The position numbers and the translations under genes were made by a program. Shown in pieces: positions 30,285-34,800 of a stretch of DNA of 36,664 nt. Origin of the DNA: Candidatus Bathyarchaeota archaeon (lineage in GTDB: Archaea > Thermoproteota > Bathyarchaeia > TCS64); the NCBI GenBank assembly GCA_016783485.1, contig JADHWM010000015.1:1-36664 (forward strand), in the 5' to 3' direction. The notes under the pieces were generated by a model that saw only the letters and a program-made list of their open reading frames with translations, was not told the DNA's origin and searched no databases. Within the stretch, counting starts at the first letter, position 1. The number at the start of each line of letters is the position of its first letter.

Positions 30285-33020
30285 TTAATGCTGTGAACCC
30301 TGGTGCAAACTGGTGGGTTCAGAATTCGTAGTAAATGCTGATTTTGTAGGAATGTGCAGTAATCCTATTATTAGTAGCCCAACAAAGACGCCAATTATTA
30401 TCGATATTGGCGTAAAGCCAGGGATACCTCTTCGTGTTTCGGTTTCGGGTTCTGGCTCGGGCTCTTCACTCTCCTCAAGGTAGAACGTCAGTTCGATTGT
30501 TCCACCAGAGGCGACGCCCCCAGTACTTGTGGCTGACTCGTACCCTTCCTTCATCGTTTTTATGACATATTCGCCGGCGATGACGTCCCGGAAGGTGATC
30601 TCCCCGTCCGATGAAGTGGTACCGTCGAGAGTAGACTGCCCTTCGGGCTGGGACGTCGAGTAGACCGTAACCTCGCTCAGCGGAGAACGCGCCTTATCGT
30701 AGACGCTGACCAGAATCGTCCCTGACTCCTCCTCGGGCTCAGGCTCAGGCTCAGGCTCAGGCTCAGGCTCAGGCTCCTCCTTAAGTTCCCGCGGGTCGGA
30801 CCCCTCGATATACTCCTGTAGATTGGTGACTCCGTCGCTATCAGCGTCGGATACGGCATCGCCCGCGTAAAGGTGATTGAAATAATTCTCGAACTCCCAG
30901 ATATCTGGCATCTCGTCGTTATCATCATCAGTGTCATCTCGGTCGTCAACGCCATCCCCATCCGTGTCGATGGTGCCGTTCTCGATGATGTCTGCCAATT
31001 CGGCCCTCGCCGCCTCCCATACGTCAGGGTCGTTTGACCAGCTGATATCGGAGTAGACCCAGGATGGATCGTCTTCAGCTTCCACTCCAACCTCCCAGAG
31101 AACCACAGGTATCATATCCTCCACGATCTCGGCGACGCGTTCTGGGGCGATCTCCGCCGCCAGTGTGAGGTAGTCGTGATCTTGGACTCCCCGTCGCCAG
31201 TTCTTCAGCCTGAGCGAGGCGAAGGGCACCTTTACTCCGTAGCTGTCCTCGGGGAAGCGGGTGTCAGTCCCCGGGTACAATAGGACTCCGTCTCCGTTGA
31301 AGTAGTTCCAGCCCGTCTTCCCAAATTGATCATCGTCTCTGTCATAGCTGCCAAAGACCTGCGCGGTCTGGAAGACGTTCGTCTGACCCATACCTCCCGC
31401 CCAGTTGTTGTAGTAGGTAGCAAACCAGTAGAACCAGCGGTCAACTCCCATCTTGAAATGGGTCCAACCTATCACTCTGGGAGAAACACCATCGTCTTCT
31501 AGGGCATAGGTACCGGTGGCTGGACGATTCCCGTTATACACATAAAATTTCGTGCCATTCTTCGCTCTATGAGCCTCCAAAGCAGCCTCCCAAAAACGAG
31601 TGATACCGAACCCTGCACCTGAAGCAACAACGTCAAGAGAAGGCGTGTGTTCCACCGCTTCTGGTAGGGGAATCGTCGCCATTGACATCAGGTTTCTACC
31701 AGGTCCGGGGTTGTTGTCCATCCACTGGGCCCATTCCTCGGTCTGTGGATAATCATCGGACTCGTCAATGAGATAAAGGAAGCACTCCGTAGGTGTACCG
31801 AAGTCTTGGCTCTCGAACCAGTTGACCCACGCAGTGGTGTTGCCCCACATGTCCTCCTCTGTCCCCCGTTCCCAAAGCCAACCCCCATAAGTGTAGATGG
31901 AGAACACGTTGTTCCCTATCCCCATGCCAACTCCCTCGTAGCCCTCGTCGGGCGTGAAGAGCGTGCCCGAAAGCCAGGGCATCCGGGGTCGCATCAACAC
32001 CTCGATGGGGGTTTCTAGAGACTCATCGTACTCTCCGCCCTCTATCAAGGAGACCTTGTGACGGTGAGCCAGCTGATGGTAGAGGTTGGTTATCTCAATT
32101 GACCGTAGCATGTCTTCGGTATACTCGTAATCCCATTCGTATACACCTGGCCACATATTCCCGAGGTAACGATAGTTGATGTCCTCGTGGCCTATCGCGA
32201 TCATCGTCTTGGCCGTGGGGATATCCGGGAGCATGAAGTCGCGCACGCTTAGGGTGATCGGCACCTCGTGAGATGTCTCCCCGTCGACGAGAATAGTGAT
32301 CGTCCCCGTGTAGTCCCCAGCCGGCGAGGTCTTGGGTATGTAGACATCTCCCCAAATTGACTGGCTTGAGTCGGCGCTGATGGTGAAGGGTGACTCCAGC
32401 TCGATGGGGACCGCGATATCCGGGTAGTACTTGTCGTGATCCGGGCGGTCCTCCCATGTGCCTATGCCCTCGTATGGACCGAAATCGTCGACGACGTATC
32501 CATAGTATGGGAGCTGGAAACGCTCCGGGATATGCCGCTCATCGTAGTAAAAACCAGCGAAAGCGAGGTCAGTTGTAAGCCCTTCGATCTTCAGGTACCT
32601 AACGTAGAAGAGCTCTATGTTCCGCCCCACGAAGTTGCCCACGTCTTCTCCGGAGGCGGTGCGACTCGTGATCGATGCCCCATCAGGCCCATCCAGCCTG
32701 TTAAACTGTACCTCCACGTCTTCGACATCCGAGCCCGGAGCCTCGATGACGAGGTTGAATGCCACTACCTCGTTCCGTGCCCCGAACAGATATATCCCGG
32801 TTCCATCCCACACCGAGTTCAGCACGGCGGAGGGATCCGTGCTCGCCCGCAGCTCGTCCTGAGTGACCTTGTCCCCGCCATCATTCGCCCAAACGATGAT
32901 TCCTGATTCATTCTGAGCCGCATTACCGGAGAGAAAAGAGGGAGGGATGCAGGAGAAAACCAGTATTATTATGGCAGCGAACATAAGTTTTCGCATGTTA
33001 TTTCCTACATAATGTTGCAT
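30285..33020 (-). CDS. Large secreted GH123/DUF4091-like surface protein with Ca-binding repeats, Pro-Glu linker and PGF-CTERM-like anchor
   Basis: This 911-aa exported protein has a signal peptide ([24 protein letters not shown]), then a beta-rich N-terminal domain to about residue 262. A DUF4091/glycoside-hydrolase-123-like barrel follows, with [10 protein letters not shown] placing D419-E420 where GH123 enzymes have their catalytic Asp-Glu pair. Next come thrombospondin-3-like calcium repeats ([27 protein letters not shown]), a (PE)n linker (about 748-764), a carboxypeptidase-regulatory-like beta domain, a second PE stretch, and [21 protein letters not shown], a PGF-CTERM-like archaeosortase signal, followed by an unusually long polar tail. 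It is likely a surface enzyme acting on glycans. The start is ATG 33020 or ATG 32996, the latter preceded by TAGGA. Confidence 0.85.
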
Positions 33021-33170
33021 GAAAATTTCCTCTTACATGTAAATTTCCCAAAGTAATATCTAAGGATTTCACTTATCGAGCGCCTATATTTACAATGGAA
33101 TAAAACTGAAAAATCATCATCTTTTACGATGATTTTAAAATACATTATGATTTAGATTCCATATAAGGGG
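33021..33170. promoter_or_regulatory. Divergent promoter region between the two surface-protein genes
   Basis: A 150-base A+T-rich gap. AAATTTACATG near 33041-33051 (minus) may be the TATA box for the large secreted protein. TTTTAAAATAC near 33132-33142 (plus) suits TTG 33171. ATCATCATCTTTTACGATGAT at 33113-33133 contains ATCATC/GATGAT arms that can form a short inverted repeat. Confidence 0.45.
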
Positions 33171-34250
33171 TTGAAATTGAGAAAACGCTGTATCCTGTAT
33201 CTCTTGTTTCTATCAATTATACTGGGCACTATTTCAGTCACAACCAAAGGTCAGGAGGAAACGTTGCTGACGAGTAGTTGGATCCGATACCCCGTGACCC
33301 TTGATGGTAAGGTCACGTCATCGACGGAGTGGTCCGACACATCGTCGACAGACATAGAACTAGGAATGGGCGACCCCGTTGGTCCCCCGTTCGTCTCAGC
33401 GAGGATATGGGTTAAAAACGACGGGGAATGGCTCTATCTCCTCTTCAAGGTTCCATGGCTCACCAGCGATGTGGACGTGGAAGACGCCATGGGGGTCTCG
33501 TTATTCTGGGGGCCTTTCGTGAATCCTTGGCTCCACTTCGACGCGGGTATGCTGGAATTCACCGGGTATCCCTCGGACACCTACCGCTACAACTGCACGG
33601 GGGATATGATCTATGACATCGACTGTACCCCGCCGGGGCAGAACGATCTCGAAGGCTTCGCCACGCACGACGGGACGCATTACTGGTTCGAGATGAGGAA
33701 GGCACTGGCGTCTGGCGATGGTTACGACTGGACACTGGAGCTTGGGCGCACTTATGGGTTGAGAGACAGGAGCCCTGACACGGGAGGTGATCTGCACGTA
33801 GCGTTGTGGGATGGAAGTATCAACGACCAGTATTACCGGTATGTCCGTCTGAAGGTGGCTACCTCGTCCGATGTACAGGTAGAGGACACGTCGATCACGC
33901 CCCAAGATACAGATACGGGCAGAGATCCGGTTGGGATATTCTCCGGTTGGTCTCTAAGGGAGGTCGTCTACCTCATCTCGATCATGGGCACCCTCATCGG
34001 GATAGTGAGCTGGGTAAACAGGACCCGGAAGGTGCGGCGAAAGCAGGAGATAGTGTTCAACAGGATTCTAAGCGAGATCGACGAGATTTACACGCGCTAC
34101 AGGATCAACTCGCGAAAATGCGAGACCGAACTCATCAAGGTTAAGAACAACGTGATGGACGAGTTCAAGCAGGAGGTCTTAGACGAGGATAAGTTTAAGA
34201 TCCTCATTGAACGGATTGAACAATACCTCAACGCGATAAAGGAAGCATAG
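33171..34250 (+). CDS. Membrane-anchored protein with CBM9/DOMON-like extracellular domain and cytoplasmic coiled coil
   Basis: This 359-aa protein begins with a signal peptide (CILYLLFLSIILGTISV). The extracellular beta-sandwich starts VTLDGKVTSSTEWSD, the pattern of CBM9-like and related ligand-binding domains, with ARIWVKNDGEWLYLLFKV and WFEMRKAL. C142 and C152 may form a disulfide. One membrane span lies at about 263-282 (EVVYLISIMGTLIGIVSWV), then a basic stop-transfer and a helical cytoplasmic tail (about 290-359). The topology is that of a surface ligand-binding receptor or scaffold. The start is TTG 33171. It is divergent from the GH123-like gene. Confidence 0.75.
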   Translation: MKLRKRCILYLLFLSIILGTISVTTKGQEETLLTSSWIRYPVTLDGKVTSSTEWSDTSSTDIELGMGDPVGPPFVSARIWVKNDGEWLYLLFKVPWLTSDVDVEDAMGVSLFWGPFVNPWLHFDAGMLEFTGYPSDTYRYNCTGDMIYDIDCTPPGQNDLEGFATHDGTHYWFEMRKALASGDGYDWTLELGRTYGLRDRSPDTGGDLHVALWDGSINDQYYRYVRLKVATSSDVQVEDTSITPQDTDTGRDPVGIFSGWSLREVVYLISIMGTLIGIVSWVNRTRKVRRKQEIVFNRILSEIDEIYTRYRINSRKCETELIKVKNNVMDEFKQEVLDEDKFKILIERIEQYLNAIKEA

Positions 34251-34432
34251 TCCAGATAGTAAATCACATTCCAATTTGCTACGCGTACAACATGTTAGCT
34301 CAATTGTATGGGTTGACAAGGAATCCTGATATAAATCGGCGGGTTCAGACTTTTTAGTGATTATCGATCTTTTTCAGATGGCGCGCGCGATCACGCCCAC
34401 TAAGTCAGCTTTCGATACATTCACCGTAATAT

Positions 34433-34442
34433 TTCTTTTATA
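34433..34442 (+). promoter_or_regulatory. TATA box of the winged-helix-like gene
   Basis: TCTTTTATAG lies 32-41 bases before ATG 34474 in an otherwise non-coding gap (34251-34473). Confidence 0.55.
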
Positions 34443-34473
34443 GCAAAAAATCCGCTTTCACACGTAAGCACAA

Positions 34474-34800
34474 ATGGCGGAAACGGAACATCCGAGACAT
34501 AATAATTCGTACAGACGTGGAGCTTATCGGATTAAGGAGAGGTTATTGAAAAAACACGATATCGACTGGTGGATATATAGACCCAAAACCCTTGACGAAT
34601 GGACTGAGATTATCACCTGTATGAACATACTCGCAGGAGACCCGACGCTGGAGAATCAGACCCCAAAGATGAGAAAAAGGCTCGAAAAAGGCGGTTTAAT
34701 ACAGCGACACCATGCTTCCTGGCCATATTACCTGACAAACAAGGCAAAAATTCTGTATGAACGAGCCGTTTCCGGCGATTACCCCCCTATACCAACTTGA
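34474..34800 (+). CDS. Small winged-helix-like protein of unknown function
   Basis: This 108-aa protein has a basic N-terminus (YRRGAYRIKERLLKKHDIDWW), a helical middle (KTLDEWTEIITCMNILAG) and a C-terminus MRKRLEKGGLIQRHHASWPYYLTNKAKILYERA. The C-terminus resembles the recognition helix, wing and last helix of a winged helix-turn-helix. A DNA-binding role is inferred only. TCTTTTATAG near 34433-34442 is a good TATA box for ATG 34474. It follows the surface receptor gene in the same direction after 223 bases. Confidence 0.65.
   Translation: MAETEHPRHNNSYRRGAYRIKERLLKKHDIDWWIYRPKTLDEWTEIITCMNILAGDPTLENQTPKMRKRLEKGGLIQRHHASWPYYLTNKAKILYERAVSGDYPPIPT

Follow-up and report, generated by a model that had tools for sequence, protein, structure and literature searches.

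A divergent GH123-family protein of a Bathyarchaeia archaeon, probably anchored at the cell surface, and its relative among the virion genes of a phage

Contig JADHWM010000015.1 of a Candidatus Bathyarchaeota archaeon (assembly GCA_016783485.1) was analyzed over its whole length of 36,664 nucleotides, here called the window. Near one end it carries three adjacent open reading frames, coding for proteins of 911 amino acids (30285–33020, minus strand), 359 amino acids (33171–34250, plus strand) and 108 amino acids (34474–34800, plus strand), and next to the last of them a gene for a lipoate-protein ligase. An earlier sequence-only reading, which proposed the same three frames, had joined them into one surface-glycan locus. 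The 911-residue protein is more probably a GH123/DUF4091-family glycosidase anchored at the cell surface, encoded by a standalone gene of patchy distribution outside any three-gene system; the 359-residue membrane protein would be a separate entity, and the 108-residue protein would belong with the ligase. The features of the 911-residue protein are as follows:

30285–33020, minus strand: putatively secreted and anchored, divergent GH123/DUF4091-family protein of 911 residues
32916–32999, minus strand: N-terminal hydrophobic segment, residues 8–35, a probable signal peptide (hydropathy)
32223–32504, minus strand: region of the GH123 N-terminal domain, residues 173–266 (Pfam)
31761–31766, minus strand: D419-E420, the catalytic DE pair by alignment
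31437–31439, minus strand: R528, in a column that holds Gly in the six archaeal family proteins outside its subfamily (NgaLy G427 by inference; alignment)
31161–31583, minus strand: C-terminal part of GH123_cat, residues 480–620 (Pfam searches)
30786–30968, minus strand: acidic DxDxDG calcium-type repeats, residues about 685–745 (translation, read by eye)
30477–30719, minus strand: CarboxypepD_reg-like domain, residues 768–848 (Pfam)
30333–30428, minus strand: C-terminal hydrophobic anchor with an IPGF motif, residues 865–896 (hydropathy; similar C-termini occur in other proteins of the family)

Two Pfam models of the GH123 N-terminal domain match the protein above their cut-offs (PF22680, 29.5 bits against 27; PF19543, 24 against 22), as does CarboxypepD_reg (33.4 against 32.3). 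The top sequence match among solved structures is NgaDssm (8k2f, E = 1.8e-9). BvGH123 (5l7r), a classical GH123 enzyme, also matches (E = 5.3e-7), and its match is confined to the N-terminal domain, residues 167–266. None of the PHROGs families matched the protein, and a model of its barrel built from a two-row alignment, with a mean predicted local distance difference test score (pLDDT) of 32.3, was not used.

The hydrophobic segments at both termini are consistent with export and retention at the cell surface. The sequence-only reading had proposed calcium repeats, which are visible in the translation, and a PGF-CTERM-like anchor. Of the latter, the surface anchoring stands and the IPGF motif with its hydrophobic stretch does resemble PGF-CTERM, but no NCBIfam model for PGF-CTERM matched at E up to 1. 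The archaeosortase family PF09721 has a single match in the genome (labelled G000), below its cut-off (24.8 bits against 25.7).

The active-site region was compared in a nine-row alignment of the 911-residue protein, its ortholog in genome G025, a phage protein described below and six other archaeal GH123-family proteins. Four of the six come from a search of the phylum, taken from among the genomes that matched in the enzyme part, and two come from a Pfam search of 256 genomes of the class. The latter search gave matches in five genomes: G000, G025, the sources of these two proteins, and G227, whose match is partial and was left out. The DE pair is present in all nine sequences, so that the D419-E420 pair noticed previously, like the GH123 kinship, is borne out. 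The roles of the two residues, and the occurrence of DE in 94% of 734 DUF4091 proteins, are described in the available text of PMC11087588. The same text gives nine residues that are invariant among the characterized enzymes compared there, a list that is a reported regularity and not a CAZy definition. NgaLy, to which its numbering refers, is outside the alignment, and the correspondence was inferred from motif and spacing. With this mapping, eight of the nine are kept in the 911-residue protein, namely D201, W223, D419, E420, Y495, W532, Y582 and R604. One strong family member (G218, 203 bits in the genome search) itself deviates at one of the nine, having Tyr for Trp; the list is thus not strict beyond the enzymes of that paper, and the 911-residue protein is therefore named a divergent member of the GH123 family. 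One row (G559_L093) was retained although it appears misaligned near two of the nine positions, where it shows an Ala and a gap, and its Gly in the column of residue 427 is less certain for that reason.

By its sequence relationships, the 911-residue protein would most likely cut beta-N-acetylhexosaminide linkages, probably those of beta-N-acetylgalactosamine (beta-GalNAc), in glycans located on the cell surface or close to it. D419 would hold the 2-acetamido group during substrate-assisted catalysis, in which E420 would be the acid/base.

The gene is rare. Strong matches to its subfamily occur in two of the 256 Bathyarchaeia genomes, G000 and G025, with G093 as a weak third. Among 61 relatives, these same two have a full-length match, and the other 19 with any match mostly have just the CarboxypepD_reg or the anchor part. 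The ortholog in G025, a genome with an estimated contamination of 9%, adjoins V-ATPase-type genes in a neighborhood different from that of the window, and G025 has no match to the 359-residue or the 108-residue protein at E 0.001. Searching 21 loci by tblastn with four proteins of the window placed the enzyme in L035 and L070 only and the 108-residue gene with lplA in L036 only; a further 13 loci gave matches to the ectodomain or tail of the membrane protein, some of them being two copies of one place. None of five loci with relatives of the membrane protein carries a relative of the 911-residue protein, four of the five being contigs under 7.2 kb, and neither the enzyme nor the membrane protein is encoded in the rhomboid flank of G001, G003 or G007. 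Several of the loci compared are short contigs, where absence is not proof.

Several observations weigh against the interpretation as an active, standalone glycosidase. The GH123_cat/DUF4091 model scores around its cut-off of 23.1 bits, with 22.2 in hmmscan (below) and 25.3 in the genome search (above). All three subfamily members have Arg (R528 in the 911-residue protein) in place of the ninth invariant residue, a Gly at the entry to barrel strand 8, and substitutions at conserved residues, G427 included, are described in the available text of PMC11087588 as badly affecting stability. The DEP motif is replaced by DES or DET in the same three proteins. As for the gene standing alone, the lack of co-occurrence with the membrane protein rests on two archaeal subfamily loci and on fragmentary contigs.

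The strongest rival explanation is a GH123 domain whose activity is lost or altered, in a protein that now binds surface glycans or is structural. The Arg and the altered DEP motif speak for it, as does the residue equivalent to D95, which is Asp in the 911-residue protein and Glu in the other two members. Against it, no member, archaeal or viral, lacks D419, E420, Y495 or W532, which are catalytic or substrate-contacting by alignment, and this conservation indicates selection for catalysis. Loss or change of activity is rather unlikely, and a working glycosidase remains the preferred interpretation. If the enzyme is active, an Arg in place of a Gly thought indispensable would broaden the range of sequences known for the family.

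The third member of the subfamily is viral. When IMG/VR was scanned with the two archaeal proteins, one locus was returned, L070 (IMGVR_UViG_3300050821_002138), and scans with other queries gave that contig only. Its 712-residue open reading frame (4762–6900) is about 42% identical to the 911-residue protein over 619 aligned residues and has the DES and Arg variant of the latter. It lacks the repeats and the C-terminal anchor and instead contains an insert in which 42 residues match the tail-fibre family phrog_5073. Upstream of the frame, on the same strand, is the gene for the major head protein (phrog_283, E = 2.4e-59). The rest of the contig encodes tail-fibre-like proteins, a DNA-ejection protein and the head-closure protein Hc3. 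The GH123-type frame sits among the virion genes of this P22-like phage contig, with glycosyltransferase-like and methyltransferase-like frames among its neighbors. Xanthomonas phage PBR31 has counterparts of both the coat and the Hc3 protein, at about 50% identity, and Vibrio, Rhodoferax, Pseudomonas and Shewanella phages are among the further matches, from which the host is judged to be probably a proteobacterium. The interval between the coat and Hc3 genes is about 1.7 kb in PBR31 and much longer in L070, where the GH123-type frame falls inside it.

In a tree of the nine aligned sequences, two of which have long end branches and two an unusual composition, the phage protein groups with the two archaeal proteins in a clade supported at 100/100. 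Their nearest outgroup there is L093 (G559:C154), an archaeal GH123-family protein of 993 residues with CBM96 and fn3 domains. Searches of phage and plasmid collections by tblastn gave no match to the 712-residue protein and only weak partial matches to the 911-residue one, in one phage and four plasmid records. A clade marked by the Arg column and DES/DET may have moved between archaeal surface proteins and phage virions, being displayed on the surface in archaea and acting as a glycan-cutting particle enzyme in the phage, with a specificity unlike that of known GH123 enzymes; this proposal is a tentative one and, taken whole, doubtful. The nearest kin found for the phage protein, in a search that left bacterial genomes outside, are archaeal surface proteins, which offers a testable case of possible enzyme sharing across domains.

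An active GH123-family enzyme from Bathyarchaeia has already been published: NgaBa, of Candidatus Bathyarchaeia archaeon B24, which is assigned together with NgaDssm to the Group 3 beta-N-acetylgalactosaminidases of the family in the available text of PMC11087588. The 911-residue protein resembles these enzymes in its domain plan, as judged from sequence, and in the DE pair, and NgaBa comes from the same archaeal class. It differs from them in its low identity, in the Arg at the invariant Gly and in DES for DEP (the sequence of NgaBa itself was not part of the comparison), and it has calcium repeats, a CarboxypepD_reg domain and a C-terminal anchor in addition. That paper was the only match found in literature searches on GH123 in Bathyarchaeia, and searches on phage GH123 found no description of a phage that encodes a GH123-type protein among its virion genes. 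Both the family and its occurrence in Bathyarchaeia are therefore known, and the Arg variant and the phage member appear to be undescribed within the literature searched. By title, most papers that pair GH123 with viruses deal with lentiviruses and the factors restricting them, where GH123 is the name of a virus strain, and the others with metagenomes from hot springs and yak.

The 359-residue protein is transcribed divergently from the gene just discussed:

33110–33136, no strand: perfect 9-bp inverted repeat, spacer 9 bp, between the two divergent genes
33171–34250, plus strand: membrane protein with a predicted DOMON-type (EB_dh/CBM9-like) ectodomain, its start perhaps a TTG at 33171 or 33177
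33951–34247, plus strand: transmembrane segment and helical tail, residues 261–359, a module found on unrelated ectodomains

The inverted repeat lies in the divergent promoter region and could be an operator or a chance occurrence in AT-rich DNA.

The membrane protein has hydrophobic segments at residues 5–26 and 261–283 (hydropathy). No Pfam family matches it at E up to 5, CBM9 and EB_dh included; a sequence search of the PDB with its alignment found no match, and a viral scan with the same alignment found nothing. An AlphaFold2 model from six sequences, which was used for the fold only, has a mean pLDDT of 58, with blocks of the ectodomain at 38–71 and the tail at 84–93 from residue 291. Residues 31–233 of the model are nearest to the gamma subunits of nitrite oxidoreductase and ethylbenzene dehydrogenase (Z 16.3 and 15.8, by Foldseek and VIA-align; Foldseek E 2.4e-8). 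Matches to CBM9 rank lower, with Z of 12.4, 12.1 and 11.9 and E of 1.5e-6; the best, 7nwn, aligns 160 residues at a root-mean-square deviation of 3.2. Provisionally and with low confidence, the ectodomain is modeled as a DOMON-type sandwich. The CBM9-like ectodomain and the helical tail of the sequence-only reading agree with this model, in which EB_dh subunits score nearer still.

Relatives of the ectodomain occur in four of 60 relatives (G012, G013, G022 and G008) and also in UBA233, and the tail is absent from some of them (G013, G022 and G008). Conversely, the tail, taken as residues about 255–358, occurs in 13 of the 256 class genomes at E 0.001 and is borne by ectodomains of the ANF_receptor+PKD, NHL+PKD and 3keto-disac_hyd types; being common to unrelated ectodomains, it is not specific to glycans. 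Tail-bearing surface proteins of Bathyarchaeia are found, besides positions 33951–34247 of the window, at loci L040, L041, L042, L043 and L044, and the combination of a membrane segment and helices may mark a general surface-protein module. A kinship of the tail with YlaN (2odm, Foldseek E 0.19) was rejected as a short helical match. A suggested likeness of the tail to SHOCT-type domains lacks Pfam support. The 359-residue protein may be a separate sensor or tether of DOMON fold whose tail recurs in Bathyarchaeia.

The better scores of the gamma subunits over CBM9 raise the alternative that the ectodomain binds heme or another small ligand, in the manner of EB_dh gamma subunits, and not a glycan. 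In ethylbenzene dehydrogenase the heme is coordinated by a Met and a Lys, according to the available text of PMC8840923. The six sequences of the membrane protein share no invariant Met or Lys, the alignment to a true EB_dh protein (L118) is weak, and no molybdenum-enzyme genes were noticed, by eye in open-reading-frame lists, around the relatives of the membrane protein. Resemblance to EB_dh and CBM9 is one of predicted fold, without a Pfam match or conservation of the EB_dh ligands, and heme or small-ligand binding is considered rather unlikely. No EB_dh profile was found in G000. Locus L118 (G002:C1, about 284886–285584), of the same genus, encodes a true EB_dh heme gamma subunit to which PKD-like domains are fused; by eye, its neighbors include frames for an iron-sulfur subunit of the dimethyl sulfoxide reductase type and a TorD-like protein.

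The enzyme and the membrane protein could also form a two-gene glycan module, one cutting and the other binding or sensing, under a shared control region. Their head-to-head arrangement across a 150-bp spacer with the inverted repeat would suit this, and so would the DOMON/CBM9-type fold. However, the arrangement is a single instance, the tail is generic, the G025 enzyme has no partner of this kind and no locus read with a relative of the membrane protein has the enzyme, which makes such a module quite improbable and leaves the standalone glycosidase as the favored interpretation.

The remaining genes at this end of the window are:

34474–34800, plus strand: small protein of 108 residues, whose synteny partner is lplA and not the two preceding genes
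34879–36015, minus strand: lplA-type lipoate-protein ligase, convergent with the 108-residue gene

The 108-residue protein has no significant Pfam, NCBIfam or PDB match in sequence searches, which leaves its earlier description as a winged-helix protein without support. Its gene is found in three of 61 genomes, the window's own included, one of the three matches being weak. The homolog in G001 is 82–83% identical and likewise convergent to lplA. The enzyme part of the 911-residue protein finds no match in G001. Of the membrane protein, that genome matches the tail alone, borne by an ANF_receptor+PKD protein that is encoded on the same contig at a distance of about 45 kb.

A system in which all three genes sense, hold and process a surface glycan, favored by their adjacency in this one contig, is rejected as very improbable: in G001 the 108-residue gene and lplA keep their arrangement in the absence of the other two genes, G025 matches neither of the enzyme's neighbors, the tail of the membrane protein is found on unrelated ectodomains, and the three do not co-occur in G025, G001 or the five loci with relatives of the membrane protein, an outcome that the sequence-only reading itself had named as its refutation.

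The window is an entire contig of a 2.13-Mb Bathyarchaeia metagenome-assembled genome with a completeness of 70%, and those relatives that carry a name are Candidatus Bathyarchaeota. It is judged a genuine archaeal contig because it carries a block of ribosomal protein and RNA polymerase genes whose kin stand in an equal setting in G001, G003 and G007. Within it, the small gene and the convergent lplA (34474–36015) form a pair conserved in two genomes of the genus, separated by 78 bp in both the window and G001.

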